A stretch of 39,255 nt of DNA from Candidatus Daviesbacteria bacterium. GTDB taxonomy: Bacteria > Patescibacteriota > Microgenomatia > Daviesbacterales > UBA10151. The notes beneath the pieces are model-generated. The model was not told the origin of the DNA. It made no database searches and saw nothing but the letters and a program-made list of their open reading frames with translations. The position numbers were made by a program, and so were the translations under genes. The DNA is taken from the NCBI GenBank assembly GCA_030648645.1, contig JAUSHL010000006.1, forward strand, positions 1 through 39,255. Direction: 5' to 3'. Positions 1,743-25,454 of the stretch are shown here, one piece after another (position 1 is the first letter of the stretch; the number at the start of each line of letters is the position of its first letter).

Positions 1743-3838
1743 GAGTTTAACCAGTCATCGGTGTCTTCGTCCAGAGGACGACCATCCTTTGGTTGGTTTT
1801 CTAAAGTTACATCATCCATAAATTCATTGGTTCGACTACTTCGCTCACCATCTTCGACCTGATAAAGTGCAGATGGGGCTTTGGTATCGGATAGATTTTC
1901 CGGTATATCCATGATAAATCTGGATACTAAATTAGCTGATTTGGTTCCGAAATACAATCTTTGTCTGGTATAAGTTAGATATAATTGTTCTTTGGCACGG
2001 GTTATCCCGACATAACAAAGCCTTCTTTCTTCTTCCATTTCATTTGGATCAAGTAAGCATCTGGAATGAGGAAATAATCCCTCTTCCATTCCGACCATAA
2101 AAACCACAGGCCATTCCAAACCTTTGGCTTGATGCAAAGTTGTTAATGTAATTGCCTCTCTGTTGCCCTGTGTTCCTAATTTCCTTTTTAGTTTTTCATC
2201 GGCTGAATATTCATTTTCAACGAGTGTGACTTGTTGTAAAAAATCAGTAAGATTTGGGAATTCTTCAGCCACTGATTTTAATTCCTGAACGTTTTCGATT
2301 CTGGTTTTACCGACTTCTGTCCCATCTTCTAAATAATCAAAATATTCTGTGATATCAATAGTTTTATCTAAAAGTTCCAGAGTAGAATATCCATAATTGT
2401 CATTGCGAGGAGGGTCGATTTTTCGACCCGACGTGGCAATCTTATCTTCCTGAGATTGCTTCTCCTTCGACTCTCCGGCTATCGCCGGATCGCTCAGGAT
2501 CGCAATGACTTCATTACAGAAAACCATGAATTTTACCATTCTGCCTTTACCAATTTTTTCAATTCTTGCCCTAGAAATAGTATCTTCGGGATTAGCAAAA
2601 AGCCGGAGGTAAGAGAGCATATCTTTAATTTCTTTTCTTTCATAGAATCTGGTTCCTCCAACTAGTACATAAGGAAGCCCCAGTTTTAAAAAAACTTCTT
2701 CCAAAGCTCTGGATTGAGCGTTGGTTCGGTAAAGGACAGCAAAAGAAATAAAAGGCAAACCAGATTTTTGAATTGTTTCGGCAACAAATAAACTTTCCGC
2801 AGTTTCGTTTTTAACTTCCGTGATATGAATTTTATCTCCACCGGAGTTGGCAGTCCAGAGCTTTAAAATAGGGTGTGATCTATTTTTGGAAATTACAGCA
2901 TTGGCTGTATCTAAAATATTTTGGGTTGAGCGGTAATTTTGTTCCAAATTAAAAATTTTTGTATTGGGATAATCTTTTTGAAAATTAACAATGTTTCTAA
3001 AATCTGCTCCCCTGAAGGCATAAATTGATTGACTGGCGTCTCCAACAACACAAATATTTTTATATCTATTGCTTAAAAGTTTGGATAATAAATATTGTAC
3101 GGCATTGGTATCCTGATATTCATCAATTAAAATATATCTGAACTGGATCTGATATTTTGATAAAATCTCAGGATAATTCTGGAACAGTTTTACTGTTAAA
3201 AGCAGTAGGTCGTCAAAATCCATGGCCTTATTTTTTTCTAAAATTTCCTGATATTTTAAATAAACTTTTGCCACAGTTTCCTGAAAATATCCCTGGGCAT
3301 AATTTACATATTCCAAAGAAGAAATCATTTCATTTTTGGCTCCGGAAATAGTACTTCTGATACTGGTAGGGGAGATTTTTTGAGATGAAAGATCTAAAGA
3401 TTTTAAAGATTCTTTGACAGCATCCAAGGCATCATTTTCATCATAAATATTAAAATTGACGGGATAGCCTAAAACTTTTCCTTCTTTGCGCAGGATCCGA
3501 GCACAAAAACTATGAAAAGTGCCCATGATTGGTAGGGAGTTTGGGGTTGGCTTGCCCTGAGCAGACTTGTCCTGAGTTTTGTCGAAGGAGTCGAAGGGTT
3601 GTTCGGTGTGGAGGAGTTTGTAAATTCTGTTTTTCATTTCTTCGGCGGCTTTATTGGTAAAAGTTATCATCAAAATATTTTCAGCAGGAATTTGTTTTTC
3701 TGTAATTAAATAGGCAACACGGTGGGTTAAAACCTTGGTTTTACCGGAACCCGCTCCGGCCAAAATTAATGTTGGTCCTTCTGTATTTAAAACAGCCTGT
3801 TTTTGAATAGGATTTAGGTCAGAAAATAGATCGGGCAT
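1739..3838 (-). CDS. pcrA: UvrD/PcrA-family ATP-dependent DNA helicase
   Basis: Walker A GAGSGKTKVLTHR, IDEYQDTN, VVGDASQSIYAFRGA, TLHQAKGLEWPVVF, YVGITRAKEQLYLTYTRQR. Confidence 0.95.
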   Translation of the reverse strand: MPDLFSDLNPIQKQAVLNTEGPTLILAGAGSGKTKVLTHRVAYLITEKQIPAENILMITFTNKAAEEMKNRIYKLLHTEQPFDSFDKTQDKSAQGKPTPNSLPIMGTFHSFCARILRKEGKVLGYPVNFNIYDENDALDAVKESLKSLDLSSQKISPTSIRSTISGAKNEMISSLEYVNYAQGYFQETVAKVYLKYQEILEKNKAMDFDDLLLLTVKLFQNYPEILSKYQIQFRYILIDEYQDTNAVQYLLSKLLSNRYKNICVVGDASQSIYAFRGADFRNIVNFQKDYPNTKIFNLEQNYRSTQNILDTANAVISKNRSHPILKLWTANSGGDKIHITEVKNETAESLFVAETIQKSGLPFISFAVLYRTNAQSRALEEVFLKLGLPYVLVGGTRFYERKEIKDMLSYLRLFANPEDTISRARIEKIGKGRMVKFMVFCNEVIAILSDPAIAGESKEKQSQEDKIATSGRKIDPPRNDNYGYSTLELLDKTIDITEYFDYLEDGTEVGKTRIENVQELKSVAEEFPNLTDFLQQVTLVENEYSADEKLKRKLGTQGNREAITLTTLHQAKGLEWPVVFMVGMEEGLFPHSRCLLDPNEMEEERRLCYVGITRAKEQLYLTYTRQRLYFGTKSANLVSRFIMDIPENLSDTKAPSALYQVEDGERSSRTNEFMDDVTLENQPKDGRPLDEDTDDWLNS
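2399..2509. repeat. GTCATTGCG...CGCAATGAC repeat within uvrD/pcrA (111 nt)
   Basis: Terminal palindromic ends and internal hairpins; near-identical left half to 39131-39230; encodes VIAILSDPAIAGESKEKQSQEDKIATSGRKIDPPRND in the helicase frame. Confidence 0.9.
3551..3599. repeat. CTTCGAC/CTCAGG-type repeat within uvrD/pcrA
   Basis: cttgccctgagcagacttgtcctgagttttgtcgaaggagtcgaaggg; related copies at 4022-4062, 10588-10612 and 23836-23875. Confidence 0.75.
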
Positions 3839-3959
3839 AAGTGGATTTCAGTTTACCAAAAGATCACAAGAGATGCTATTACGTAAATATTTTCCCACTA
3901 ACTCTAACCTCGGGGGTTAGATACGGGGGTTAGATATGCTTAATAGCTAAAACCACACA

Positions 3960-4092
3960 ATTTTGTGATATGTCATAATTTTGTGTGAAATTTAGCTTCA
4001 AAGTTAACGATAATTCCGCAGGCTTGCCTTGAGTGAACTTGTCCTGAGTAAAATCGAAGGGTGTCAAGCTAGTCCACCCCAAGGGTGGACAT
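3960..4092 (+). promoter_or_regulatory. intergenic module copy 1 (subtype A) with hairpin GTCCACCC-CAA-GGGTGGAC
   Basis: Shares TTTTGTGT..AAATTTAGCTTCAAA, GATAATTCCGCAGG and GTGTCAAGCTA.TCCACCCCAAGGGTGGACA with copy 3. Confidence 0.7.
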
Positions 4093-4149
4093 TAACAACT
4101 TTGCACAAACATTTATCAGTGCTATTATATGGTCAAGTTCAAAAAAGAA

Positions 4150-5337
4150 CTATTTATGTTAAGACCTGATGTTAAGATTGATGGGCAAATAACCGGATCA
4201 AACTTAAGAAAAATACTGCCAGGATTGACTGCTTTGGTTCTAATTACAGGTTGCACCACTGTTTCAATATCCCAGGCAGACATAATTCTACTGCCTAATC
4301 ATGTTTATCTACCTATAATCACTAAAAATTATCAGGAAACTAATCCCTACAGGGAGGATGTTACTATTACATCAGCTGGCTTTCATCTTGGTCGCTATAA
4401 TTGGCTAGCTGTGGGAGCAAACTGGCGGGTTTTGGACTACGATAATAATTTTGGTGATCCGCCTTGGACTGTAAGTACTGTGAGTGAGAACAGAGATACT
4501 GTTAATCAAGAATTGGCCAATATGAAATTGGCAGGCATTAAACTGGTGAGGATAGGTTTATTAGACTCTGGTGCAGCTTTTTTCAATGGAGGCTATAGTA
4601 GCGCTATGAGGGATGATGCGAGGACGTTTCTGGAGCTGGCTTATGATAACGAAATTAAAACCGAGCTGGTACTGGCTGATCATCTCTTTGGTGCCAGACA
4701 TTCCCAGATTTTTACCGATACAGGTCTTCGTCAAAGTTTGACTCAAGATTTATTGTCAGATATATTAAGAGACATCCAGGCAAATTCTAAAGCGAGAAGC
4801 TCTTTGTTTAGTATTGATTTATTAAACGAGCCTGAATGGTTAATCAGTAAAGATGATGGTGGAGGATGGGAATATGTCAACGGAGAAAGATCTCCTCAAC
4901 CAGTTGACATTGATAAAATTGATGCTTATCTGATTGAAGCACACGATACATTAAAATCTATTATGCCGGAAAAATTTGCTACCGTCGGTGTTTCTGCTAA
5001 ACATACTCAGGTTATTGAGGGTGTGATGGATCAGCTAGATTATATTGCTATTCATCATTATGCCCATATGGGATCGTTGACACAATATATTGACCGCTTG
5101 CCCACTAATAAATCTTGGGTGCTGGAAGAGTTTCCCACGAGAGACGAGAGCATACCAGTAACTCCTTCGACATACCTGGATTTAGTACTAGGACTTCGAG
5201 AGAGACGCTCAACCGGAGCTCTGATGTGGATGTGGAAACCAATAAGAGGTTCTATAGATAACAATACTGAACTTTCGATGATCCCTAATTTAACTGATTG
5301 GATAGATATACACCAAAATGATATTTTGAACCGATAA
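4150..5337 (+). CDS. putative glycoside hydrolase (clan GH-A/cellulase-like), lipoprotein
   Basis: SIDLLNEPEW and WVLEEFPTR resemble the two catalytic Glu regions of GH-A enzymes; lipobox-like LVLITGC. A -10-like element overlaps the ATG at 4129, so 4150 is preferred. Confidence 0.65.
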   Translation, partial: LFMLRPDVKIDGQITGSNLRKILPGLTALVLITGCTTVSISQADIILLPNHVYLPIITKNYQETNPYREDVTITSAGFHLGRYNWLAVGANWRVLDYDNNFGDPPWTVSTVSENRDTVNQELANMKLAGIKLVRIGLLDSGAAFFNGGYSSAMRDDARTFLELAYDNEIKTELVLADHLFGARHSQIFTDTGLRQSLTQDLLSDILRDIQANSKARSSLFSIDLLNEPEWLISKDDGGGWEYVNGERSPQPVDIDKIDAYLIEAHDTLKSIMPEKFATVGVSAKHTQVIEGVMDQLDYIAIHHYAHMGSLTQYIDRLPTNKSWVLEEFPTRDESIPVTPSTYLDLVLGLRERRSTGALMWMWKPIRGSIDNNTELSMIPNLTDWIDIHQNDILNR

Positions 5338-5394
5338 TAGGCGATATTTAACCTTGGGGGTTGGATATGTTAAATATTTAAAATTACAAACGAA

Positions 5395-5494
5395 ACCCAC
5401 AGTTTTATGAGATATTATCATTTTGTGTTAAATTTAGCCTTAAGATATATGGAAAATCCTTAGGTGTCAATATAATTCCACCCCCGGGGTGGAA
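5395..5494 (+). promoter_or_regulatory. intergenic module copy 2 (subtype B) with hairpin TTCCACCCC-C-GGGGTGGAA
   Basis: Shares TTTTGTGTTAAA...AATCCTTAGGTGTCAATATAATTCCACCCCCGGGGTGGA with copy 4. Confidence 0.7.
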
Positions 5495-5546
5495 AAGGGG
5501 TGGAAAAATAATTAACCTAAAAACATATGATATACTGACATAGATT

Positions 5547-6209
5547 ATGCATAATGAAGAATTTTCTGGTGTACCCATAGGTGATTCTGTTAATAAATTC
5601 CTAAAAGAAGAAGGTGAAAAACAAAAACTATTAAAACAACAAGTCAGAAAATTATTTCTGAAGGCTCACTTTATACAAGATAAGGTATGGGTTGATAGTG
5701 CATTTTTCCCAGAATTAATGGAAGCTGAGTTTGCCAAGAAAGGTATGAATATCTCTCCTGAAGATGAGGCATTTAGTATATTTGTGCAGTTAGATGAAAA
5801 TTCTGATTCAAAAGAGCCGGATATTTTTCTTGGGGGGAAACAGGTTTTAGTGGTAGGTTTGATGGTAGGGGAATTGCTTGATGAAGAAGGTAAAGGGAGT
5901 ATGAAAACTGGCTACGAATTAATATTAGAAGCTGAACATCCCGTGCAGGAGGGTAATATTTGTTATTCTTTTGTTTTTTCAAATGAAGGTTTATGGCTAA
6001 AGCAAAAAATGGCAAGATTAATATATAGAGAAGATGAATTAGAAGTTGTAGAACACACAGAACCAACTGATGAGATCTCAACTCATGATTTGGAGCAAGT
6101 TCAACTAGCTCTTTCACTAATTGAATCACGAATTAAATCCGCTATGTCATCTGTTAACAGGAGGATTGACAAAGAACAACCTCAGATAAAATGGCCAGAA
6201 ATCCCATAA
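5547..6209 (+). CDS. hypothetical protein (220 aa)
   Basis: Complete ORF behind module copy 2; TATACT-like -10 upstream of ATG. Confidence 0.7.
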   Translation: MHNEEFSGVPIGDSVNKFLKEEGEKQKLLKQQVRKLFLKAHFIQDKVWVDSAFFPELMEAEFAKKGMNISPEDEAFSIFVQLDENSDSKEPDIFLGGKQVLVVGLMVGELLDEEGKGSMKTGYELILEAEHPVQEGNICYSFVFSNEGLWLKQKMARLIYREDELEVVEHTEPTDEISTHDLEQVQLALSLIESRIKSAMSSVNRRIDKEQPQIKWPEIP

Positions 6210-6299
6210 AGTGATTAATTTTCAAATCCTTACAAATTTTGTCTTGTACCAATAAGTTCCACGATCGTATACTATATTGTTTTCTAATATATATCATAA

Positions 6300-6374
6300 T
6301 CTTGTATGGAATTGAATTTTTAAGTTAATAATAATTCCGCAGGTGTCAAGCTAATCCACCCCAAGGGTGGACAC
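6300..6374 (+). promoter_or_regulatory. intergenic module copy 3 (subtype A) with hairpin TCCACCC-CAA-GGGTGGA
   Basis: aagttaataataattccgcaggtgtcaagctaatccaccccaagggtggaca matches copy 1 apart from a ~38 nt insertion there. Confidence 0.7.
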
Positions 6375-6428
6375 CAATAACTTCAAATTTGCATAGGGGT
6401 TAAGGTTTATGGTAAACTATGGGTTGCT

Positions 6429-7562
6429 ATGTCAACCGAAGCTTTGTACAATAGAAGAGAATTTCTGACTTTTGCCCATAAAAGGAGCAAACATCCTAAT
6501 AGGCAATCCCATTTTGGTAAAACTAATCCACGCCCATTTTCTTCTCAACCCGGACAAAGCGGAATCGGATTTACTAAACGCGAATTGATTATTGGTAGTT
6601 TAGTAGTTGTAGGAGGCGTTGCAGTTGGTTTATCAAGACCCTGGGAACAATTTACTCCCGTAGAAACCTTGGAATCACTAGTTACTGAAGCTAAAAGAAT
6701 GGAAGATGAATATCAGAATAACAACTTATCAAATAAACCTGTTAGAGAAAAATACGCAGACATTTTAGCTGGAATCTTTACTTTTCATAATCCTGGAGAC
6801 CTCACTAGACCTCAATTGAAGGAAGCAATTACTTTCACAGATACTCTTGACCAATTTGTAAGGGAGAGAATGGCTTCAGACGGTAGAACCGGCAATCCAA
6901 CTCTTCAACAACTGGCAAATGAACGTTTTACAACGGCTGCCACTGATAATAGACAAAGAAAAATTACTGTAAATACTGCATCCGAAGCTTTTAAAAAACA
7001 AAATGTAGCTTTAATGAAAAATGTCCCCCAGAACTGGAATTCCCTAAAAATGCTTCGTATTTCGTTACTGCATGAATTTAATCACTTAGTTATTGAAAGT
7101 GAAGATGAAGTTATTTTCTCTATAATAGATCCTAATAATAAAATTAAAGATAAGCGAATAGAGGGTTTTAGGATTATAGGTATAGATAAAATTGGGAAAC
7201 TTGCTGTAGTATTTACAGATCTTCACGAAGCCGCAATAGAATTCTTTGCAAAAAAACTCAGCCTAGCTGACTTCGGCTCACACCTCAGTAATTTTCAGAG
7301 TGATGTTACAGGAGAAGATGTCACTGCATTAATGGGCTGTTTGGAACAAATATTAGGAGTAATAGGTATGACTTATGAAGAATTAACTAAACTTCATAAA
7401 AAATCAAATCTGAGACAATTCCTATTGACACTATCCGATAAAGCTGGGGTAAGTCCAAATATTTCCTTAGAGGATAGGATTAAATTCGGCTCCGTTATTG
7501 CTGGAGCTATTGAGAGAAATGACCAAAGAATCTTACAAAACTATATTAATCAAGTTAAATAA
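6429..7562 (+). CDS. membrane-anchored protein with HEXXH motif, putative metalloprotease
   Basis: TM segment ELIIGSLVVVGGVAVGL; LLHEFNHLVIES (HEXXH) followed by DLHEAAIEFFAKKL. Confidence 0.55.
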   Translation: MSTEALYNRREFLTFAHKRSKHPNRQSHFGKTNPRPFSSQPGQSGIGFTKRELIIGSLVVVGGVAVGLSRPWEQFTPVETLESLVTEAKRMEDEYQNNNLSNKPVREKYADILAGIFTFHNPGDLTRPQLKEAITFTDTLDQFVRERMASDGRTGNPTLQQLANERFTTAATDNRQRKITVNTASEAFKKQNVALMKNVPQNWNSLKMLRISLLHEFNHLVIESEDEVIFSIIDPNNKIKDKRIEGFRIIGIDKIGKLAVVFTDLHEAAIEFFAKKLSLADFGSHLSNFQSDVTGEDVTALMGCLEQILGVIGMTYEELTKLHKKSNLRQFLLTLSDKAGVSPNISLEDRIKFGSVIAGAIERNDQRILQNYINQVK

Positions 7563-7639
7563 ACCCAACGTACCTAAAATTATCACTTCAACATTTTTAT
7601 AGCCGTCAATGTTTTTTCTGTTTCTGTATCACGCCATGG

Positions 7640-7717
7640 CGCGATTTTGTGTTAAACCTAGCTTCAAAATATATAAAATATCCTTAGGTGTCAATATAAT
7701 TCCACCCCCGGGGTGGA
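7640..7717 (+). promoter_or_regulatory. intergenic module copy 4 (subtype B) with hairpin TCCACCCC-C-GGGGTGGA
   Basis: ttttgtgttaaacctagcttcaaaatatataaaatatccttaggtgtcaatataattccacccccggggtgga; closely matches copy 2. Confidence 0.7.
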
Positions 7718-7760
7718 TGGATTGCAAGATGTTTTTGAAAAATGTAGAATATCAAATAAC

Positions 7761-8093
7761 ATGGAAGGTTTACCTAAAAATTGTAGATCCGATGAAGGAG
7801 TTGAATTGGCAAATCACTTATCAGGGGAAGTTCTTACTAATCCGAAATCATGGGATATTCTTGTAAATTGGTTAACAGAAAGGGCTGATTCTCTGCCTCT
7901 TCTTGGTTGGGATAGAAACTTTGTCAAGACAATTGGTCGAATGGATTCGGAGGACAGGAAAGGTTATTTTCAAGATTTACAGACAGGACTTTTGAGCACA
8001 GAGGAATGTAGGAATTGGAAACAACTAACAAGTGAATACAAAGAGGTAGCTAACAAAATGATATCTTTTTGGCGAATACTCCATGATCTGTAA
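7761..8093 (+). CDS. hypothetical protein (~110 aa)
   Basis: ORF-track start 7713 lies inside the module hairpin; ATG at 7761 gives hairpin-to-start spacing similar to the other modules. Confidence 0.5.
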   Translation: MEGLPKNCRSDEGVELANHLSGEVLTNPKSWDILVNWLTERADSLPLLGWDRNFVKTIGRMDSEDRKGYFQDLQTGLLSTEECRNWKQLTSEYKEVANKMISFWRILHDL

Positions 8094-8140
8094 TTGCTTT
8101 AAATAATTTTTTCAAGTCTTTACAAATTTTTAGATAATGT

Positions 8141-8231
8141 TATACCCAAAACACTCTAATTTGTAATCTTTAATCAAAATTTTGGGTTCAAACTATTTAA
8201 TGAGGGTTGCAAACCCGAGTTAAATTAGTTT
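8141..8231 (+). repeat. dispersed structured intergenic element, copy 1
   Basis: TATACCCAAAACACTCTAATTTGTAATCTTTAATCAAAATTTTGGGTTCAAACTATTTAATGAGGGTTGCAAACCCGAGTTAAATTAGTTT. Confidence 0.85.
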
Positions 8232-8245
8232 ATTATCTTTAGGCT

Positions 8246-8509
8246 ATGAAAAATATAAAATTTTTAGATTTTTGGGCGAGTTGGTGTTCCCCATGTCAGG
8301 CAATGAAACCTGTCATTTCCGAAATTGAAAAAGAATTAAAAGGTCAGGTTGAAGTAATTCAAATCAATGTTGATGAAAATCAGGCAGAAGCTTCTAAATA
8401 TGGAGTAATGGGAATTCCTACTTTTATTGTTTTAAAAGATGGTAAAGAAGTCGGTAGAAAAACAGGAGTGACTCCCAAAATAGATCTTCTCAAAATGATT
8501 AGTGCCTAA
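8246..8509 (+). CDS. trxA: thioredoxin
   Basis: FWASWCSPCQAMKPVI with WCSPC active site; MGIPTFIVLKDGKEVGRKTG. Confidence 0.93.
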   Translation: MKNIKFLDFWASWCSPCQAMKPVISEIEKELKGQVEVIQINVDENQAEASKYGVMGIPTFIVLKDGKEVGRKTGVTPKIDLLKMISA

Positions 8510-8537
8510 ATCTTCTGGATATAGTAAACTAAAAAAT

Positions 8538-9212
8538 ATGTGGATTATTGCCAATTGGAAATCAAACAAAAATATCGCCGAGGCTTTGGATTGGGTAGGG
8601 AAAGTCGGACCGGATTTAGAAAGAAAAGAAAATCTAAAAGTAGTGGTTTGTCCAAACTATACTGATATTGAAGAAGTTAAAAAAGCGATTTTAGTAGGTA
8701 ATTATCCGATGTTGGTGGGAGCGCAGGATTTATCGGCTTTTGATAATGGTCCTTATACCGGAGAAGAATCAGCCAGAATTTTAAAGGAACTGGTGGATTT
8801 AGTTATTTTGGGACATTCAGAAAGAAGAGAAAATTGTTCTGAAACTGATCAAATAGTTGAAGAAAAAGTCAAAAGAGCACTAGAGCATGATATTATTCCT
8901 CTGGTTTGTGTTCAAAATAAAGAAACACCTGTGCCGGAAAATGTAAAATTAGTAGCCTTCGAACCAGTTTTTGCCATAGGTACAGGTAATCCTGATAATT
9001 CTGAAGATGCCTCAAAAGTAGCAGAATCCTTCAAAGAAAAATATGGTCCGGCATCTGCCGGATTAGAGGTTTTATATGGAGGTAGTGTTGATAGTCAAAA
9101 TGCCAAAGCATTTTTACAACAGGAAAACATAAGTGGATTATTGATTGGTACCAGTTCTTTGGATCCTCAAGAATTTATAAAAATTGTTGAAGTTGCTTAC
9201 CAATTTATTTAA
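8538..9212 (+). CDS. tpiA: triosephosphate isomerase
   Basis: MWIIANWKSNKN, ILGHSERR, AFEPVFAIGTG, LYGGSVDSQNA. ATG at 8538 gives the canonical start. Confidence 0.93.
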   Translation: MWIIANWKSNKNIAEALDWVGKVGPDLERKENLKVVVCPNYTDIEEVKKAILVGNYPMLVGAQDLSAFDNGPYTGEESARILKELVDLVILGHSERRENCSETDQIVEEKVKRALEHDIIPLVCVQNKETPVPENVKLVAFEPVFAIGTGNPDNSEDASKVAESFKEKYGPASAGLEVLYGGSVDSQNAKAFLQQENISGLLIGTSSLDPQEFIKIVEVAYQFI

Positions 9213-9215
9213 ATT

Positions 9216-11914: not shown

Positions 11915-11915
11915 C

Positions 11916-12083: not shown

Positions 12084-12084
12084 A

Positions 12085-13313: not shown

Positions 13314-13346
13314 TGTTTATAGTGTAATACAAGTGGGGAAGAAGTA

Positions 13347-15402: not shown

Positions 15403-15439
15403 ACATCAACCAATATCAGTCACATTTTAGTGTACGACC

Positions 15440-15514: not shown

Positions 15515-15672
15515 GTCCAAGGAATTGATATGACAAGAGTTCTTAAGTACACTTCAATAATTCAAATAATTGAAGTATTAATATTCAAGTTACCAAACCG
15601 GGTTTGGAAAGCTAGTCTTTGGAATTTATGGTGTAATACAAGTAGAGAATAACTGCTAGTTAAAATTAATTA

Positions 15673-16404: not shown

Positions 16405-16454
16405 ATGATATTTATATCACTTTTTAATCCAAAATTCGAATCTTGTTTTTAATT

Positions 16455-16559
16455 TATACCCAAAATACTCTAATTTGCAATTTTTAATCAACATTTTGGG
16501 TTCAAAATATTTAACGAGACCGCCAGCTGGCGGTTGCAAACTCGAGTTAAATTAGTTTA
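16455..16559 (+). repeat. dispersed structured intergenic element, copy 2
   Basis: Same as 8141-8231 with ~13 nt extra forming ACCGCCAGCTGGCGGT. Confidence 0.85.
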
Positions 16560-16654
16560 CAAGAAGAGAATTAATAGTTCGTAATTTAGTGTGTGATCGT
16601 CCAATGAAATGGTATGATGTGATATTGGTTTGATTAAAGAACTGCTGGTTAGAA

Positions 16655-16900
16655 TTATTTTGCTTTTGGAGTTACTAATTTGGACAATCTGGATTTGAGA
16701 CGAGCTGCTTTGTTGCGGTGAATTAAATTGGTTTTGGCTGCTTTATCTAAGGCTGAAAAAACAGCTGTTAAATTTTTAGCATTAGGAGTTTTTCTGGTAA
16801 TCTTAATTAGCTTTTTTAAAGCATTAGACTTGACTGCATTTCTTGCAGTTCTAATTTTATCTTTTCTAACCTTTTTTATAGCGCTTTTTATAATAGGCAT
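16655..16900 (-). CDS. rpsT: 30S ribosomal protein S20
   Basis: MPIIKSAIKKVRKDKIRTARNAVKSNALKK...HRNKAARLKSRLSKLV. Confidence 0.92.
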   Translation of the reverse strand: MPIIKSAIKKVRKDKIRTARNAVKSNALKKLIKITRKTPNAKNLTAVFSALDKAAKTNLIHRNKAARLKSRLSKLVTPKAK

Positions 16901-17078
16901 AATTTCCTGATGCCTATTTCAAGCTTTGCTTATAATAGGCATAATTTTGTTCGGAGTAAGGAGTTGGGAGTTCGTAGTAATTACACAACGAACTACGAAC
17001 ACTGAACCCAGAACTAATCATGTATCTTAACACAGGCTATAGCATTACTTCAAGTCTCTTTGATACAATCATTAAAGT

Positions 17079-18716
17079 ATGGTCAAAAATTTCCTCTCAC
17101 TTCTTTCCACAAGACAAACATCAATCTTATCCGGAGCTGTTGTTTTAATGGTCACGGTTTTTGCTTCCAAAATTTTGGGCTTAGTCAGAGACAGATTGCT
17201 TGCCCAATTTTTTGCTCCTGATCAATTGGCTGTTTTTTTGGCAGCTTTTAGATTACCCGATTTGTTGTTTCAATTACTTATTTTTGGAGCAATTTCTGTA
17301 GCTTTCATTCCTGTTTTTACAGATTATATTCACAAAAAAGGAGAGAAAGAAGCGTTTGCTTTTGCTTCAGATATTTTAAATATGGTACTTCTATTTTTTT
17401 CTATTGTTACTGTTATTGTCTTTTTTTTCTGTGGTCCGATTACTAATTTAATTGTTCCCGGTTTTACCGATTCACAAAAAGAATTAACCACAGCTTTGAC
17501 TCAGGTAATTTTATTGGGGCAGATTATTTTGGTCATCGGATCATTTTTTACCGGAATTTGTCAGTCCTATCAAAGATTTGTTGTACCTGCACTATCTTCT
17601 ATTCTTTATAATGTGGGGATCATTTTTGGGATTTTATTTTTAGTGCCTTACTGGGGTATTTTCGGACCGGCTTATGGAGTAATTATTGGAGCATCTTTGT
17701 ATGTTTTGGTGCAAATTCCGCTGGTTTCCTCCTTAGGTTTTAGACATCTTTTGAGATTAAACTTTCAAAGTTCCGGAATCCGTGAAGTTACCGGTATGAT
17801 GAGTATCAGAACATTGGGTATTGCCATGGAACAAATCAATGAAACTGTTGGTTTAATATTGGCCACCTTAATTACTACCTCTTCTGTCACTTTTTTAACT
17901 TTTGCTCAACACTTGCAAACTGTGCCAATCGGACTTTTTGGGGCAACACTGGCACAAGCAGCCTTACCGGTATTAGCGCGGGAAAACACTAAAGGGGAAA
18001 CTGCTTCTTTTAGAATTACTCTTTTGACTACGATGCATCAAATCATGTTTTTGTGTTTGCCGGCCACAGCTATTCTAATTGTGCTTCGCATTCCGGCTGT
18101 CAGATTGGTCTTTGGGGCTTCGCAGTTTAATTGGGAAGCGACTGTTCTAACAGGAAAAACTGTGGCCTTTCTGGCTTTAGGATTGGCTGCTCAGGCAGTC
18201 ATACTTTTGCTAGTTCGAGCTTTCTATGCTCTGAAAGATACCAGAACTCCGGTGATTGTGTCTGTGGTTACGGTAATTTTAAATGTAGGTTTAAGCTATT
18301 ACTTTGTGGTTATTGCGCATATGGAAGTTTGGAGTTTGGGTTTGGCTTATGCTATTACGGCTAATTTAGCCGTTTTGATGTTGCTTTACTTTTTGAATAG
18401 AAAAGTAGGAGGATTTGAAAGATTCAATCTTTTTATACCTGCTTTTAAAATGATTTTTTCAGCTTTAGTAGCAGCTGTGGCTTTATATCTACCAATTAAA
18501 TCTTTGGATCAGTTGGTTTTTGATACAACCAGAACTGTTAATTTAATTGTATTAACAGGTATTGCTTCTTTGTTTGGATTGACTGTTTATTTTGTGATGG
18601 TCTATTTATTAAAAGTTAAGGAATTGGAAACTTTTGGAGGAATGATTAAAAAGATTTATCATTTCCAATTTAAGTCAGAATCAAAAGAAATTATTGATGA
18701 TACAGGAACTGTCTAA
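17079..18716 (+). CDS. murJ: lipid II flippase MurJ/MviN family
   Basis: SKILGLVRDRLLAQFF, AFRLPDLLFQLLIFGAISVAFIPVF, multiple TM segments. Confidence 0.93.
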   Translation: MVKNFLSLLSTRQTSILSGAVVLMVTVFASKILGLVRDRLLAQFFAPDQLAVFLAAFRLPDLLFQLLIFGAISVAFIPVFTDYIHKKGEKEAFAFASDILNMVLLFFSIVTVIVFFFCGPITNLIVPGFTDSQKELTTALTQVILLGQIILVIGSFFTGICQSYQRFVVPALSSILYNVGIIFGILFLVPYWGIFGPAYGVIIGASLYVLVQIPLVSSLGFRHLLRLNFQSSGIREVTGMMSIRTLGIAMEQINETVGLILATLITTSSVTFLTFAQHLQTVPIGLFGATLAQAALPVLARENTKGETASFRITLLTTMHQIMFLCLPATAILIVLRIPAVRLVFGASQFNWEATVLTGKTVAFLALGLAAQAVILLLVRAFYALKDTRTPVIVSVVTVILNVGLSYYFVVIAHMEVWSLGLAYAITANLAVLMLLYFLNRKVGGFERFNLFIPAFKMIFSALVAAVALYLPIKSLDQLVFDTTRTVNLIVLTGIASLFGLTVYFVMVYLLKVKELETFGGMIKKIYHFQFKSESKEIIDDTGTV

Positions 18717-18736
18717 TTTAAGGTACAATATGCCTC

Positions 18737-18820
18737 ATGAATATTAAGAATTTTTCCATCATAGGGCTACCTTCGCCTTTGGCGAACGATCCTGTAATCG
18801 AGAAGGAGTTTATTGTATGA
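18737..18820 (+). other. short upstream ORF repeating the LepA N-terminus
   Basis: MNIKNFSIIGLPSPLANDPVIEKEFIV*; its TGA overlaps the lepA ATG (gtATGA); contains hairpin TTCGCC-TTT-GGCGAA. Confidence 0.65.
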
Positions 18821-20742
18821 ATATAAAGAACTTCTCGATTATTGCTCATGTTGATCATGGCAAATCAACTTTAGCGGATAGATTATTGGAAGTTACAGGA
18901 ACTATCACGGGTAATAAAATGCAACCACAACTGCTTGATTCTCTGGCATTGGAGCGCGAACGTGGAATCACTATCAAACTCGCTCCAGTCAGAATGAAGT
19001 ATAAATCATCTGTCATTGCGAGCACTTCGATGTCATTGCGAGCGGAGCGAAGCAATCTCAGTGTAAACTCCGCGAAGCAATCTGATGATGAGATTGCTTC
19101 GTCGTCCGGCTCTGCCGGAGCTCCTCGCAATGACGAAAAAGAATATACGCTGAATCTGATAGATACTCCCGGCCATGTGGATTTTTCTTATGAAGTATCG
19201 AGATCTTTGGCAGCGGTTGAGGGGGCAATATTGTTAGTGGATGCAACTTCTGGTATTCAGGCGCAAACTTTATCTCATGGTCTTTCGGCACTGGAACAAA
19301 ATTTAACTTTAATTCCGGTAATTAATAAGGTTGACTTGTTGTCAACCTTGCGATCACCTAACGGTGATCTAAAAATTGATTTTGAGCGTTTAGATGAAAT
19401 AAAAATACAGTTAATTGATACTTTTGGATTTTTGGAAGAGGAGATTTTATTAGTTTCAGGGAAAACAGGCAAAGGAGTAAAAGAGCTTTTGGAGGAAATT
19501 ATTAAAAGAGTGCCTTCGCCAAAAATAGATGATAAAAAACCACTCCGGGCTTTAATATTTGATTCTTTTTTTGATACTTATAAGGGGGTAGTGGCAGGAG
19601 TAAGAATAGTTGATGGGGAAGTGCCAAAAGTGGGCACAAAAATAAAATTTTTAGGGACAGGGGCAATTGGGGAAGTTTTAGAAAAAGGCTATTTTTCTCC
19701 CGGACTTACTCCTATCGAAGATCTAAAATCAGGAGAAATTGGCTATATCGCCACAGGTATTAAACAATCAGATCTTGTCAGAGTTGGCGACACAATATCA
19801 CACCCTCGGGGTGTGATAGAACCTTTACCTGGTTACAAGGAAGTAAAGCCAATGGTTTATGTGGGACTTTATCCAATTGAACAATCAGAATTTTTGGAAC
19901 TTAAAGAGGTTTTAAATAAATTTAGATTAACTGATCCGGCTTTTACTTATGTTCCGGAAAATTCCCAAGCCTTGGGAGCTGGATTTAGATGTGGATTTTT
20001 AGGATTACTTCATGCAGAGGTGGTTCAACAAAGATTATCGGAGGAATTTAATATTGATCTTTTGGCCACCACGCCATCAGTTGAATATTTAGTTGAAGAT
20101 GTCCCAATAACCAATCCTGCAGATCTTCCTCAAGGCGAGAACATTAAAGATTTAAAGGAACCTTGGGTAAAGTTGAGAATTTTTACTCCGCAAGAGTTTA
20201 TTGGGGGGATTATGGACTTGGTTTCAGAAAAAAGAGGAATTTTTCAAAATCAAACTTACTTTGGAAATCAGGTGGAATTACTTTATGAAATGCCACTTTC
20301 AGAAATGATCACTGATTTTTATGATAAATTAAAATCAGTGTCATCAGGATTTGCTTCATTGGATTGGGACTTTTTAGAATTTCGGGAAATTGATGCAGTG
20401 AGAGTTGATATTTTGGTAGGAGGAGAAAAAGTTGATGCATTGTCGACGATTATTGTAAGATCAAGAGCAGAAAGTGTGGGCAGAAGATTAGTTAGTAAAT
20501 TAAAAGATGTATTACCAAGGCAAAATTTTGAAATTGCACTTCAGGCAATAGTTGGGGGTAAAATTATTGCCCGTGAGACAATTTCTCCTTTTCGCAAAGA
20601 TGTGATAGCAAAGCTTTATGGAGGGGACAGAACCAGAAAAGATAAGCTTTTAGATAAGCAGAAAAAAGGGAAAAAGAAAATGAAAATGATAGGACGTGTT
20701 GAAATTCCTCAGGAGGCTTTTTTAAGTATTTTAAAAAGTTAA
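18817..20742 (+). CDS. lepA: translation elongation factor 4 (LepA)
   Basis: MNIKNFSIIAHVDHGKSTLADRLLE, LERERGITIK, LNLIDTPGHVDFSYEVSRSLAA, AGFRCGFLGLLHAEVVQQRL. Confidence 0.96.
   Translation: MNIKNFSIIAHVDHGKSTLADRLLEVTGTITGNKMQPQLLDSLALERERGITIKLAPVRMKYKSSVIASTSMSLRAERSNLSVNSAKQSDDEIASSSGSAGAPRNDEKEYTLNLIDTPGHVDFSYEVSRSLAAVEGAILLVDATSGIQAQTLSHGLSALEQNLTLIPVINKVDLLSTLRSPNGDLKIDFERLDEIKIQLIDTFGFLEEEILLVSGKTGKGVKELLEEIIKRVPSPKIDDKKPLRALIFDSFFDTYKGVVAGVRIVDGEVPKVGTKIKFLGTGAIGEVLEKGYFSPGLTPIEDLKSGEIGYIATGIKQSDLVRVGDTISHPRGVIEPLPGYKEVKPMVYVGLYPIEQSEFLELKEVLNKFRLTDPAFTYVPENSQALGAGFRCGFLGLLHAEVVQQRLSEEFNIDLLATTPSVEYLVEDVPITNPADLPQGENIKDLKEPWVKLRIFTPQEFIGGIMDLVSEKRGIFQNQTYFGNQVELLYEMPLSEMITDFYDKLKSVSSGFASLDWDFLEFREIDAVRVDILVGGEKVDALSTIIVRSRAESVGRRLVSKLKDVLPRQNFEIALQAIVGGKIIARETISPFRKDVIAKLYGGDRTRKDKLLDKQKKGKKKMKMIGRVEIPQEAFLSILKS
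19012..19134. repeat. GTCATTGCG...CGCAATGAC repeat within lepA (123 nt)
   Basis: Encodes VIASTSMSLRAERSNLSVNSAKQSDDEIASSSGSAGAPRND between VRMKYKS and EKEYTLNLIDTPGH. Confidence 0.92.
19327..19369. repeat. two adjacent perfect hairpins in lepA
   Basis: AAGGTTGAC-TTGTT-GTCAACCTT then GATCACC-TAAC-GGTGATC. Confidence 0.85.
19796..19818. repeat. in-frame hairpin TATCACACCC-TCG-GGGTGTGATA in lepA
   Basis: Same subtype as the intergenic hairpins at 14954, 29559, 30279, 31290 and 33372; encodes ISHPRGVI. Confidence 0.88.
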
Positions 20743-20746
20743 TCAT

Positions 20747-21079
20747 ATGAGCGAGATAAAAAATTATTTATTCGGGGTTATCAGAATTGAATATCAAACT
20801 GAAGCTGATCAACTAACTGCTCTTGCAACAATTGTAAGAAAAAAACAGGCATTTGAAATTGAGAGTGGTTATAGAAGATCAGATTCTACTGGCAATTTTC
20901 TTTTAGCAGTAGCACATGGAGGTTATATCCATGATGAGAGCATTGTCAAACAGGCTGGTTTTAAATCTAGGTTGATAGGATTATTGTGGTGGCGAAGAAC
21001 AGGTTTGCTACCCTTGAATTTACCTGATGAATTTGGGAGAAAATATTTGCAAAATAGCTACTGTGTAGATGATAGTTAA
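20747..21079 (+). CDS. hypothetical protein (110 aa)
   Basis: Complete ORF immediately after lepA. Confidence 0.5.
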   Translation: MSEIKNYLFGVIRIEYQTEADQLTALATIVRKKQAFEIESGYRRSDSTGNFLLAVAHGGYIHDESIVKQAGFKSRLIGLLWWRRTGLLPLNLPDEFGRKYLQNSYCVDDS

Positions 21080-21086
21080 TAATCAA

Positions 21087-21135
21087 AGTTTAGCTTGACA
21101 CCTTTTAGCTTGACACCTTTAAGGTGGACGCCTAA
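21087..21135 (+). repeat. left direct repeat flanking the RelE/RelB locus
   Basis: AGTTTAGCTTGACACCTTTTAGCTTGACACCTTTAAGGTGGACGCCTAAAC. Confidence 0.85.
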
Positions 21136-21141
21136 ACAATA

Positions 21142-21160
21142 TTCCACCTCGGGGGTGGGA
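21142..21160. repeat. hairpin TTCCACC-TCGGG-GGTGGGA
   Basis: Member of the TTG/TCG-loop hairpin superfamily. Confidence 0.65.
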
Positions 21161-21169
21161 TGTCAGAAG

Positions 21170-21427
21170 CTAATTATATGTTTGAGTAGTGCGGCGTGCT
21201 ACTTCGGCAATTTTTATTATTTTTTCTGTATCATCTACTCCGAAGAAAATTCTATACTCCCCAGCTCGTAAGCGGTACACATCAGGTTTAGTAGTTTCTA
21301 GCTTAATACCAAACTGACGGGGATTTTCTAGAATAGATTCAATTTTTTTTAGGATTTTAATTTGTTCTTTTTTAGGGAATTTTTTTATTTCTTTTTCAAA
21401 ACGACGAGTATAAACGGGTCGGTACAT
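21170..21427 (-). CDS. RelE/ParE superfamily toxin
   Basis: RRFEKEIKKFPKKEQIKILKKIESILENPRQ...YRLRAGEYRIFFGVDD. Confidence 0.85.
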   Translation of the reverse strand: MYRPVYTRRFEKEIKKFPKKEQIKILKKIESILENPRQFGIKLETTKPDVYRLRAGEYRIFFGVDDTEKIIKIAEVARRTTQTYN

Positions 21428-21428
21428 T

Positions 21429-21728
21429 TTAAATCCCCAGATTCTTTTTTAGTTGTTCGTGAGAAATACCTTTTCCTTCATCAATTTCCCTTAATCCTTT
21501 ATAAACAGATTCAATAAAGCCAGGTTTTTGTAAATCACTTAAAGTTTCATATAAATTCAAGTATGATTCCAAGTCAATTAACACAGCTTGTGGCATACCA
21601 TGCTGGGTTACTACCAGTTCTCCTCCTTCTTTAGGAAGTCTATCCAAGACGTCGCTTAATTGACGACGCAATTCGTCTATACCTATAAATTTCTTTTGTA
21701 AAACCTCAGCTAAATCTAATGTTTGCAT
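21429..21728 (-). CDS. Phd/YefM/RelB-type antitoxin
   Basis: FIGIDELRRQLSDVLDRLPKEGGELVVTQHGMPQAVLIDLESYLNL. Confidence 0.85.
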   Translation of the reverse strand: MQTLDLAEVLQKKFIGIDELRRQLSDVLDRLPKEGGELVVTQHGMPQAVLIDLESYLNLYETLSDLQKPGFIESVYKGLREIDEGKGISHEQLKKNLGI

Positions 21729-21778
21729 GATGTAATCCTATCGTATTCCTAATGTTTTGTCAAGATATTGTTTAAAAA

Positions 21779-21864
21779 AGTTTAGCTTGACACCGCGTCA
21801 AACGCGGTTAGTCGAGTTTGACTCGACACCTTTTAGCTTGACACCTTTAAGGTGGACGCCTAAA
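21779..21864 (+). repeat. right direct repeat flanking the RelE/RelB locus
   Basis: Same core as 21087-21135 with two extra hairpins (ACCGCG-TCAAA-CGCGGT; GTCGAG-TTTGA-CTCGAC). Confidence 0.85.
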
Positions 21865-22030
21865 TATTTATTACAGATCAGGGGCACAACTGATCGCATT
21901 AGATCGAAGATCGCAAGTTCTGCTTATAGCTTATAGCGACTGATTGTACCATTTCTGAGCTTAATTCAAATTTTTGAGGTTGATTTTAATTTAATTTTGG
22001 AGTAAATTACGGGGACGATATTTTATAATT

Positions 22031-22288
22031 ATGACAGAAGTAAATAAATTTCTTGGTATAACAATAGTGAAAGAAACCCGTCAGGAAAGACAACAAAGAG
22101 TTGAAGTACTGTCTCGTGCATCAAATGAATTGGCAAATGGATTGCCCAATGGTCTACCTGATGCCGATCGTTTTATCTGGGATGAACGAAAAAGACTTTC
22201 TCACAGAATAGAATTTTTGGATGGATCTATTTGTCATTTTGGTTTAAGACGTTGGCAATTAATTATTACTATCTTAAAACAGGTCTGA
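22031..22288 (+). CDS. hypothetical protein (85 aa)
   Basis: Complete ORF. Confidence 0.45.
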   Translation: MTEVNKFLGITIVKETRQERQQRVEVLSRASNELANGLPNGLPDADRFIWDERKRLSHRIEFLDGSICHFGLRRWQLIITILKQV

Positions 22289-22339
22289 AAAATTTACCGG
22301 TTGATTTATAGACACTCAAGTTTTAAAATCTCATTTATC

Positions 22340-22681
22340 ATGACAGAATCTAATATTGAAACAATTCAATTTCCCATAGAACCAGGTCATGAAAAAAAGA
22401 CTCTTGATTTTTATCTTCACAGAATTGAATATTTAGCAAAATTACAAAAAAAACTTGAAAAACAATTTGAGCAGTACCCATTCGAGATTTCGTTAATTAA
22501 AATTGCTGGTTTTGAAGCTTATAGAGGTTTAAAAGCTACAGTAAATGTTATTGAAAAACCAAAGAATTTGAGATCAACATCTTCCGGCAGAAAATTTGCA
22601 GAAGAAGCTTTTGAATACTTTGGAATTAAAGTAAATAAAGGAAATCCCTCAATTGATTCGTGCATAAATGACATCAAATAA
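22340..22681 (+). CDS. hypothetical protein (113 aa)
   Basis: ORF with internal ATG at 22340 (MTESNIETIQFPIEPGHEKKTLDFYLHRIEYLAKLQKK). Confidence 0.5.
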   Translation: MTESNIETIQFPIEPGHEKKTLDFYLHRIEYLAKLQKKLEKQFEQYPFEISLIKIAGFEAYRGLKATVNVIEKPKNLRSTSSGRKFAEEAFEYFGIKVNKGNPSIDSCINDIK

Positions 22682-22711
22682 AACTCATTTTCTGCTAGAA
22701 TACATAAAGCT

Positions 22712-23797
22712 ATGAAAGATGAAAAGTTTTTAGAAATTATTGATAAAAATGAACTCTCTCCACGGTCTAATGTCCGTGGTTTCGAGTTCTTGTCTGACGA
22801 CAATAAAACTGTTTTAATTATTGCTTCTGATCCTTTGGATTTTGATTGTTTGGGATCAGGTTTAATTTTAAAAAAATATTTGGAATCTTTGGGAAAAATT
22901 GTAACCCTAATGTGGCCTGGGGAAGCAACCCGCGAGGATAGAGATTATTTTAGATTTTTACCTTATTTTAATGAAGTTATTTTTAAAGATACCAGAGAGA
23001 TTTTAAAAAAGAAAAATTTTGATGTTTTAATCTTGGTAGATGGCTCCTCTTTGGTCCAATTTTATGATACTTCTAAAACAATTGATAATCCTCCAGATTT
23101 AAGTATTTATGACACCAGAATTCATATTGATCATCATTTAGATAATGGACAGGTTTTGGGAACCTATACAATCAGAGATGTTGGTGCCAGTGCTGCTACA
23201 AAAATAATTTTGGAAAAAATTGTCCCCCGGGATTTTATTGATGAAAAATTAGCAACTTTGGGATATTCTGCTATTTTGTGGGATACAGGAAATTTTCAGT
23301 GGCAATTTAATGATGGAACTTTGGAAATTGCTGACTTTTTACTGCAAAAGGGTGCAGAGGTAGATTTTTTACTTAATAAACTTTACAGTTCTTATCCAAA
23401 ACTTCGACTGGAAATGCTTTCTTTAGCAATTAAAAATATTGAATATGATGATAAGTTAAAAACATTATTTTTATTTTTGCCATATCAAACATTTCAGGAA
23501 GAAAAATTGGATGAAAATAAATTTAAGGAACTTCGAGAAGTATTTGTTGATGAAATTGCCGGGAAAATTACCGGGTATGACAGGGGGATTTTAATTTATG
23601 AAAAAGAACCCAATAAAATAAAAATTTCAGCCCGAGGCAATAATTTGTATAACAAAATTAATTTACCTAAAATTCTTTCAGAATTGACTCCTCAGGGTGG
23701 AGGACATTTTAATGCTGCCGGAGCAGAAACAAAAGGGGATTTTGAGGAAATTAAAAAAGCCCTTTTAGAAACGATTCAGAAATATCTTCAAAAATAA
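22712..23797 (+). CDS. DHH/DHHA1 family phosphoesterase (NrnA-like)
   Basis: IIASDPLDFDCLGSGLILKKYL, IHIDHHLDN, GASAATKIILE, ILWDTGNF, GGGHFNAAGAE. Confidence 0.88.
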   Translation: MKDEKFLEIIDKNELSPRSNVRGFEFLSDDNKTVLIIASDPLDFDCLGSGLILKKYLESLGKIVTLMWPGEATREDRDYFRFLPYFNEVIFKDTREILKKKNFDVLILVDGSSLVQFYDTSKTIDNPPDLSIYDTRIHIDHHLDNGQVLGTYTIRDVGASAATKIILEKIVPRDFIDEKLATLGYSAILWDTGNFQWQFNDGTLEIADFLLQKGAEVDFLLNKLYSSYPKLRLEMLSLAIKNIEYDDKLKTLFLFLPYQTFQEEKLDENKFKELREVFVDEIAGKITGYDRGILIYEKEPNKIKISARGNNLYNKINLPKILSELTPQGGGHFNAAGAETKGDFEEIKKALLETIQKYLQK

Positions 23798-23926
23798 TAT
23801 GAGTTCAATTTTCTCTAATGTCATCCCGCACTGGTCCTTCGATACACTCAGGACACTGAGCTTGTCGAATGTGATGCGGGATCTATATAGATTCCGGATC
23901 AAGTCCGGAATGACAAAAAATAAGTA

Positions 23927-23963
23927 TTGACATTTATTAGCAGTCTTGATATATTACTGCTAG
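23927..23963 (+). promoter_or_regulatory. putative sigma70-type promoter with CIRCE-like operator upstream of hrcA
   Basis: TTGACA (23927-23932), 17 nt spacer, TATATT (23950-23955); overlapping TTAGCAGTC-N9-TACTGCTAG (23937-23963) versus CIRCE TTAGCACTC-N9-GAGTGCTAA. Confidence 0.75.
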
Positions 23964-23993
23964 TGACGTACCGTTGGGTACATCATTTTTAAT

Positions 23994-24719
23994 ATGTCAG
24001 ATTTATCGGAAAGACAAAAACAACTTCTAAAAGTAATTATTGAACTTTATGTAAAAACCGGTGATCCGGTTTCCTCCGATTTGATTGAAAAAAATTCCAG
24101 TATTGGTGTTTCCCCTGCTACTTTAAGAAATGAGATGGTTAGACTAACTGATTCAGGATTTTTAAAACAGCCTCATACCAGTGCAGGCAGAGTACCAACT
24201 GCTTTGGGTTTCAGATTATATATCGCCGAGCTCATGAAAGAAAAAGAAGTTTCAGTAGTTGATGAAGTTAATTTAAGACAACAGGTTTTGGATGTCAGGA
24301 CAGAATTTAATAAAATGTTGCAGGTTGCCACCAAAGCTTTAGCCCGGAAATGCGGAACTTTGGCAATTTCCTTGCATGACGACGATGTTTTTTACTCCGG
24401 GGCTGCCAGTATTTTAGATTTACCGGAATTTTTTGATATTGATGTCACCCGTTTTGTGTTATCTTTATTTGATGAATGTTCCCTGCTTCATCAGATTTTA
24501 GATCAGGCAAAAGGTGTTGATCCTTTGCATATTATTTTTGGAGAAGAAACAGGCTATGAATACCTAATACCTACCAGTTTTGCTTTTTTAAATTTTGAAA
24601 CAAAATTTGGCAATCAGGGTATAATTGGAGTTATTGGTCCAAATAGATTAAACTTCCCTCTGGTTATACCTTATCTTAGATATGTGGGAAGAGTTTTAAC
24701 AGAAGGGAGCAGTATTTAA
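23994..24719 (+). CDS. hrcA: heat-inducible transcription repressor HrcA (short form)
   Basis: LSERQKQLLKVIIELYVKTGDPVSS...GVSPATLRNEMVRLTDSGFLKQPHTSAGRVPT. Confidence 0.92.
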   Translation: MSDLSERQKQLLKVIIELYVKTGDPVSSDLIEKNSSIGVSPATLRNEMVRLTDSGFLKQPHTSAGRVPTALGFRLYIAELMKEKEVSVVDEVNLRQQVLDVRTEFNKMLQVATKALARKCGTLAISLHDDDVFYSGAASILDLPEFFDIDVTRFVLSLFDECSLLHQILDQAKGVDPLHIIFGEETGYEYLIPTSFAFLNFETKFGNQGIIGVIGPNRLNFPLVIPYLRYVGRVLTEGSSI

Positions 24720-24863
24720 AAAGGAGTGTAAATTCGAAGCACGAAATCCGAAATCCGAAACAAATTCTAATAAGCAAAATACAAAACTGTTTTGAATTTT
24801 GAAAATTTGAATTTTGAAAATTGTTTCGAGTTTCGATTTTAGAATTTCGAATTTGAATTAATT

Positions 24864-25454
24864 ATGAGTAAACAACGAGAAGAATATAAACAACTTGAAG
24901 AGAAAGTTCAAAGCTTAGAAAATGAGTTAAAGAGGGCTGTGGCAGATTATCATAATTTGGAAAAAAGAGTGGCTGAGGGAAGATCAGAGTTAACCAGTTG
25001 GGGAACCAATGAGTTAGTAAAAAAACTTTTACCCGTATTGGATCATTTGGAAAAAGCTCTTGATGGGGTTAATGGGTCAGATGAAAATGCTGGTCAGAAT
25101 GGATGGGTCAAAGGAGTGGAGTTGGCTGTTAAAGAGTTTAAAAATGTTTTACAATCTGAAGGATTGGAAGAGATAGTGGTTGAGGGAAATTTTAATCCTG
25201 CACTACAAGAAGCGGTAGATACAAAAGAGCCCTCCTCCGCTGAAGCTTCGGAGGGTAAAGGAGAAAATGGTATTTTAGAAATTGTCCAAAAGGGGTATAC
25301 TATGAATGGTAAAATATTAAGACCAGCCAGAGTCGTGGTTGGAAAGAAGAATGTCATTGCGAGCGAAGCGAAGCAATCTGGTTTGGAAGAGGAAGAGATT
25401 GCCACGTCGCCTTCGGCTCCTCGCAATGACGAAGCAGAAGAGGAGAGTAAATAA
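24864..25454 (+). CDS. grpE: nucleotide exchange factor GrpE
   Basis: [53 protein letters not shown]; lies between hrcA and dnaK. Confidence 0.92.
25353..25430. repeat. GTCATTGCG...CGCAATGAC repeat within the grpE 3' end (78 nt)
   Basis: Encodes [26 protein letters not shown] beyond the normal GrpE terminus. Confidence 0.92.

Follow-up and report, generated by a model that had tools for sequence, protein, structure and literature searches.

A palindromic element with YGTC-tagged inverted ends, carried in frame by conserved genes of a Candidatus Daviesbacteria genome, and its association with small GIY-YIG nucleases

The subject of this analysis is a palindromic repeat found in a 39,255-nucleotide stretch of DNA (contig JAUSHL010000006.1 of assembly GCA_030648645.1, Candidatus Daviesbacteria bacterium; the whole stretch is called the window below), where copies lie in frame within uvrD, lepA and grpE. 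The repeat was followed through the assembly (0.96 Mb in 45 contigs, labelled G000, in which the window is contig C26) and into other genomes. It is a non-autonomous mobile palindrome whose moving unit is GTC...GAC, and it resembles two copies of a CGTC/TGTC-tagged repetitive extragenic palindromic (REP) sequence joined as a head-out dimer. A small GIY-YIG nuclease probably mobilises such dimers, and the copies that fall into genes would survive in tolerant loops. The nuclease is strongly associated with these REPs, and its putative catalytic part in their movement is deduced from the comparison of sequences.

A mobile palindrome and its copies in the genome

The exact terminus GTCATTGCGAG occurs at 166 sites in the genome, as against one site for the reversed pattern, and a pattern search yielded 63 matches to full elements with exact termini arranged as inverted dimers. 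With up to one mismatch per terminus and nested copies merged, the stretches fetched around the copies contained 74 elements in total; since the repeat stands at the start or end of many contigs, this copy number is an underestimate. The window holds 14 matches to GTCATTGCG with at most one mismatch (3.2 ± 1.7 in shuffled sequences), and its four copies of the element fold far more stably than shuffles (z from −3.4 to −7.8) and bear side hairpins. These four copies had been described in a first-pass annotation of the window, and their positions, the lengths of 111, 123, 78 and 100 nt and the frame reading VIA at one end and RND at the other were all reproduced. A search of the window against Rfam gave no match. 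Each element is composed of two inverted hairpins (GTCATTGC...GCAATC), which have the GTC directed outward and enclose a short centre and exchangeable side hairpins.

The 111-nt copy in uvrD matches a 111-nt copy in a glycosyltransferase gene (G000:C28:8967), while the flanks of the two are unrelated. Such matching copies at unrelated sites establish that the unit GTC...GAC moves. The flanks follow a simple rule, as a pyrimidine precedes and a purine follows the element at 71 of the 74 copies (21% in the background). Comparison of the flanks of the listed copies and of two loci of the nuclease-bearing unit described below (L250 and L251) revealed no consistent target-site duplication; thus, the fixed-length duplication expected of a miniature inverted-repeat element moved by a DDE transposase was not seen. 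The net change at the protein level at the insertion sites is about −4 to +4 residues.

Genic copies and their reading frame

Genome-wide, 28 copies lie in frame in 26 genes, named by NCBIfam and Pfam matches: uvrD/pcrA, lepA, grpE, rho, a copA-type ATPase gene, uvrA, an O-antigen ligase gene (Wzy_C), prmC, topA, gatB, uvrB, recG, a 2-oxoacid oxidoreductase gene, rplA, tsaD, a FemAB-family gene, gyrA, murC, glycosyltransferase genes of the WecG and GT4 families, leuS (three copies), tlyA and the genes of DNA polymerase IV, Fpg, the CCA-adding enzyme and a Peptidase_S74 protein. Short ORFs (open reading frames) that span the copies at C3:19312 and C28:23625 were regarded as spurious, and these copies are not counted as genic. 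The three essential genes of which the first-pass annotation had spoken are a sample of this larger set, most of whose members are essential. A large share of the hosts serve DNA repair and topology (uvrA, uvrB, uvrD, recG, topA, gyrA, fpg and dinB), echoing a remark made on other phyla (PMC3733652). The leuS gene (L071, on contig C28) carries, besides its three GTCATTGCG inserts, in-frame peptides of other repeat families (VILNSFQDLGIPKQVRDD and SSYAKASKDKGKTGLPDEVL).

In alignments with orthologs from related genera, the insert was absent from LepA in all eight relatives of the same family and from UvrD in four of four, and also from UvrB, TopA, LeuS (sites 1 and 3), CopA, UvrA, GyrA, GatB, TsaD, Fpg and RecG. 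The solved structures of Aquifex LepA and of PcrA have no inserts either; the lepA site comprises 41 residues here and a single one in Aquifex LepA. This clean absence identifies the genic copies as true insertions, as the first-pass annotation had supposed, and wherever the sites were checked they lay in variable loops or at termini. The grpE copy was correctly described as extending the C-terminus, for the Pfam GrpE match stops at residue 161, upstream of the insert.

The length of the element is divisible by three in 27 of the 28 genic copies and in 18 of the 46 others (p = 3.3e-7). The former count includes 20-nt terminal extensions of the lepA, tsaD, rplA and fpg copies: the lepA copy is a composite of a 103-nt core and an extension that duplicates the end motif, and only their sum is divisible by three. 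Twenty-six of the 28 genic copies encode the VIA...RND frame. The exception to the length rule is gatB, in which a 97-nt copy begins in the frame reading SLR, ends with RND and adds a net 32 codons. The third phase invariably runs into a stop at its end (CAA TGA C), and no copy uses it. When the element was removed in silico from the 46 non-genic copies no convincing gene was restored, so that no frameshifted gene is concealed among them; together with the in-frame state of the genic copies this indicates that the genome either lacks disruptive insertions or has purged them. In this genome, neither homologous residues at the insert positions of insert-free orthologs nor randomness of frame and length was found.

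The rule is weaker elsewhere. Among 17 genic copies in eight other genera, 11 have a length divisible by three and the VIA frame, five are of length 1 mod 3 with an SLR start and an RND end, and one is of length 2 mod 3; in the pooled data, 38 of 45 genic and 26 of 70 other copies are divisible by three (p = 4e-7). The frame and length regularity predicted by the first-pass annotation is thus strong in this genome and not universal, and what is conserved is that the frame stays open, mostly with RND at its end. Copies of other lengths keep the frame in another way, which makes tolerance the simplest reading.

Whether the repeat is kept as a portable peptide or merely tolerated had been left undecided, and our data lean towards the latter. 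Variable loops apparently tolerate the inserted peptide without its being selected for a function, as the stop phase is never used, the sequence and length of the insert vary freely and the loops that receive it are themselves variable. The VIA/RND frame is still in mild excess, since the codon-position bias of pyrimidine–purine steps, combined with the degree to which each usable phase is open, leads one to expect that phase in 62% of the copies (p = 3e-4); a possible cause is that the hydrophobic LLAMT reading is selected against. The same excess would suit a selected peptide (VIA..KQS..IA..RND) functional in its host proteins, as would the finding that eight of the 17 copies in other genera share both gene and loop with a copy of the present genome. 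Nevertheless, this explanation is very unlikely: the middle of the insert varies as well as its length, the SLR start is also used in other genera, the hosts are unrelated, any given copy is absent from most relatives, and palindromes of different families lie in frame in the same proteins.

The shared loops are those of uvrA, uvrB, uvrD, gyrA, tsaD, dinB, wecG and leuS site 2 (loci L284, L285, L286, L301, L311, L313 and L315). Either these copies were inherited and many others were lost, or a small number of permissive loops captured the element again and again. One could go further and ascribe the persistence of the element mainly to permissive loops and inherited older insertions, with low current mobility, in line with genome G001, where all three genic full copies found coincide with sites in the present genome. 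We consider this improbable, because the 111-nt duplicates in two genes and the contigs ending on the repeat indicate a recent expansion of the element in this lineage, and so do the 49 copies of one length class, of which relatives have 0–12.

Small GIY-YIG genes between inverted REPs

In this genome, one subfamily of GIY-YIG nucleases is represented by four stand-alone genes, each of them bounded by GTCAT-type REPs. The gene at C17:4160 has REPs of the GTCATTGC type and the gene in the window lies between GTCATTCC REPs (27457–27858), not GTCATTGCG, while those at C17:14375 and C11:10604 are bounded by partly degenerate GTCATCC-type REPs. The stand-alone GIY-YIG genes of other subfamilies examined in the same genome are not bounded by GTCAT-type REPs. 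The conserved residues Y, Y, R, H, E and N of the GIY-YIG domain are retained at 99–100% over 113 aligned rows.

A search of 85,000 species with the four genes gave 80 loci from many phyla. A GTCAT hairpin lies within 150 bp of the gene at 74 of these and on both sides at 54, compared with 13% (any side) and 1.7% (both sides) for 298 other ORFs of the same loci (p = 2e-39), and hairpin density drops from 11 per kb at 0–60 bp to 0.1–0.3 per kb beyond 500 bp. In the usual layout, a REP precedes an ORF of some 93 codons at a distance of about 31 nt and the inverted REP follows it after about 19 nt, the complete REP–GIY-YIG–REP unit being 343–542 bp long (median 377 bp). REPs of this kind also adjoin a GIY-YIG gene in Neisseria gonorrhoeae and Azospirillum lipoferum. 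In Sinorhizobium meliloti (L283) the gene is flanked by hairpins tagged with CCTCAT, a variant with a CCTC tag. Because the GTCAT motif misses members with variant tags, the counts probably understate the association.

The association is also cognate. The loci closest to the C17 nuclease are flanked by REPs in 27 of 30 cases, about half of them by the GTCATTGCGAG type itself. On the GIY-YIG tree the REP type changes 4–5 times, as against about 16 times when shuffled, and within the phylum set twice as against 10.3 times. The median number of GTCATTGCGAG termini is 17.5 in 16 genomes with the cognate nuclease and 0 both in 10 genomes with a nuclease of another type and in 20 without one; after subtraction of four copies, the contrast persisted (p = 1e-4 and 0.003). 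The unit as a whole also moves, as far as comparison of loci can establish it: genome G223 contains two 410-bp REP–GIY-YIG–REP units that differ at one base (99.8% identity) and have unrelated flanks, and a genome of the same genus (G260) has neither the REPs nor the gene at the corresponding locus.

We propose that the autonomous element consists of a GIY-YIG gene between two matching inverted REPs, about 0.35–0.45 kb in all and represented here by G000:C17:4007–4498. Its nuclease would act on the REP ends that it recognises as its own, cutting both these and a pyrimidine–purine target; it would insert there the complete unit or a dimer devoid of the gene, leaving no visible target duplication. 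Genic copies would persist because the loops that receive them are tolerant and their frame is open and hydrophilic.

Several points weigh against this proposal. The GIY-YIG trees rest on about 95 columns and are weakly supported. The cognate genomes owe their selection to the REP adjoining the gene, by which the copy-number contrast is partly built in. Genome G159, in which no cognate GIY-YIG was detected, contains 22 GTCATTGCGAG sites, all on one strand, where the sites of other genomes are balanced; these are perhaps a tandem array. No precise empty site of the GIY-YIG unit was found, the intervals in G260 and G168 being too diverged and the Sinorhizobium records containing none. As for the genic copies, the preference for the VIA phase is modestly above neutral expectation, and their definition by ORFs spanning the element favours those in frame. 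The support for the proposal comes from sequence comparison, and catalysis is a step that we infer.

Finally, homing of a GIY-YIG gene into existing REP dimers could produce the same association. GIY-YIG enzymes are classical homing nucleases, and Penelope-like elements carry a GIY-YIG domain; the present units resemble both in that a GIY-YIG nuclease is tied to a mobile element, but they have no intron and no reverse transcriptase and are flanked by REP hairpins. If the gene were a homing passenger that cuts dimers of its own REP type and is copied into their centre, some other enzyme moving the REPs, one would likewise expect cognate specificity and a gene placed centrally between inverted REPs. 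This main rival is nonetheless unlikely. The near-identical copies in G223 include both REPs, the related genome lacks the REPs as well as the gene, REP copy number tracks the presence of the cognate nuclease, and the loci examined revealed no other enzyme next to these REPs. The joint absence and the copy-number relation argue against homing without settling the matter.

A REP-associated tyrosine transposase (RAYT, Y1 family) acting in trans was considered as well, because RAYTs are associated with GTAG-type REPs (PMC3733652) and the genome has 12 Y1_Tnp genes. It was rejected and is a highly improbable mobiliser: not one of the 12 genes lies between GTCATTGCG ends, several have a distinct hairpin of their own at their borders, such as ATATCACACCCTTGGGGTGTGATAT, and the published survey likewise found no association of CGTC REPs with tyrosine transposases. 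The RAYT-like Y1 transposase gene of the window (29619–30269, within 29558–30310) is flanked by its own hairpin ATATCACACCCTTGGGGTGTGATAT, of which the window has about eight copies, one within lepA (19794–19826).

Features of the window, related repeats and significance

The features of the window are collected in Table 1. A second, unrelated palindrome lies in frame in uvrD at 3549–3588 (peptide DSFDKTQDKSAQGK), where it adds about 20 residues that PcrA does not have, and a similar intergenic copy is found at 4021–4060. A further family of 70–94 nt repeats (TTATACCCAAAA..TTTGGGTTC) is present at 8140–8233, 16448–16519 and 37054–37153, its copies being up to 92% alike and located on both strands.

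Table 1. Copies of the element, their host genes and the REP-bounded nuclease gene in the window
Feature	Position	Strand	Remarks
Element in uvrD/pcrA, 111 nt	2399..2509	-	Encodes VIAILSDPAIAGESKEKQSQEDKIATSGRKIDPPRND; absent from 4/4 relatives
Host gene uvrD/pcrA helicase	1739..3838	-	Pfam UvrD-helicase/UvrD_C; TIGR01073; PcrA structure 1pjr
Element in lepA, 123 nt	19012..19134	+	Extension 19012-19031 and core 19032-19134
Host gene lepA (elongation factor 4)	18817..20742	+	TIGR01393, E=1.6e-237
Element extending the GrpE C-terminus, 78 nt	25353..25430	+	Encodes 26 residues
Host gene grpE	24864..25454	+	Pfam GrpE, E=1.4e-36
Intergenic element, 100 nt (1 mod 3)	39131..39230	+	Near-identical relatives at C15, C27, C28 and C39
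Sister-type REP, GTCATTCC hairpin	27457..27479	+	Directly upstream of the GIY-YIG gene
Stand-alone GIY-YIG nuclease, REP-associated subfamily	27488..27769	+	Pfam GIY-YIG, E=2.7e-17, over the cut-off
GTCATTCC REP dimer	27788..27858	+	Directly downstream of the GIY-YIG gene

The closest known counterparts are the CGTC/TGTC-tagged REPs, a superfamily that includes Neisseria dRS3 and the Rickettsia palindromic elements RPE-4 and RPE-6 (Di Nocera 2013, PMC3733652). Members of this class also occur inside genes, many of them for DNA repair, including uvrA, uvrB and uvrD, and the 2013 survey found no transposase for them (PMC3733652). The present element shares with them the unpaired YGTC tag (T or C precedes GTC in 73 of 74 copies), a stem that starts with AT (ATTGC/GCAAT), the formation of inverted dimers, copies in the same three uvr genes and the lack of an adjoining RAYT. 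It differs in that its dimers are longer, its stem is interrupted by variable, exchangeable side hairpins where the class has an 8–9 bp stem and a 4–5 nt loop, its tail is CT or CC where the class has a 3-nt CCA, its partner is a GIY-YIG gene, and its host is here probably a member of the Patescibacteria. The sister family GTCATTCC fits the class description of stem, loop and CCA tail well.

Rickettsia palindromic elements are palindromes of about 100 nt that lie in frame in conserved protein genes and also between genes (PMC2229807). The parallel drawn with them in the first-pass annotation was apt: they (Ogata 2000) and the present element are alike in size and in their in-frame and intergenic positions, with RPE-4 and RPE-6 falling in the matching REP superfamily and the 28 genic copies corresponding to the RPE-4 type of insertion. 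This likeness is one of features, and the bacterial lineage is different. With the REPIN/REPtron system the units have in common an enzyme gene between inverted REPs as the autonomous form, from which numerous gene-less dimers derive, but a GIY-YIG nuclease takes the place of the RAYT and YGTC that of the GTAG tag; neither a GTAG tag nor a linked RAYT, the marks of that system, was found. In open-licence papers, nothing was found that joins GIY-YIG with REP, dRS3 or RAYT in bacteria, a coverage that leaves novelty unproven, and a literature search by repeat motif returned unrelated papers only.

On balance, we favour the view that minimal autonomous elements of this kind, composed of a GIY-YIG gene between inverted YGTC REPs (about 0.35–0.45 kb), are pan-bacterial and generate the CGTC-type REPs, the in-frame ones included. 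If so, they would be the source of dRS3, RPE-4/6 and other CGTC REPs, which were reported to lack a dedicated transposase, a nuclease family known for homing would gain the role of mobilising DNA elements, and the units would rank among the smallest mobile elements that are autonomous. Since the GIY-YIG partner is conserved and cognate, the question of the missing transposase of CGTC REPs can be tested directly. In this genome, the uptake of mobile DNA by coding sequence is taken to an extreme, and its core enzymes of replication, repair, transcription and translation, with their inserts of 23–44 residues, provide a natural map of insertion-tolerant loops.

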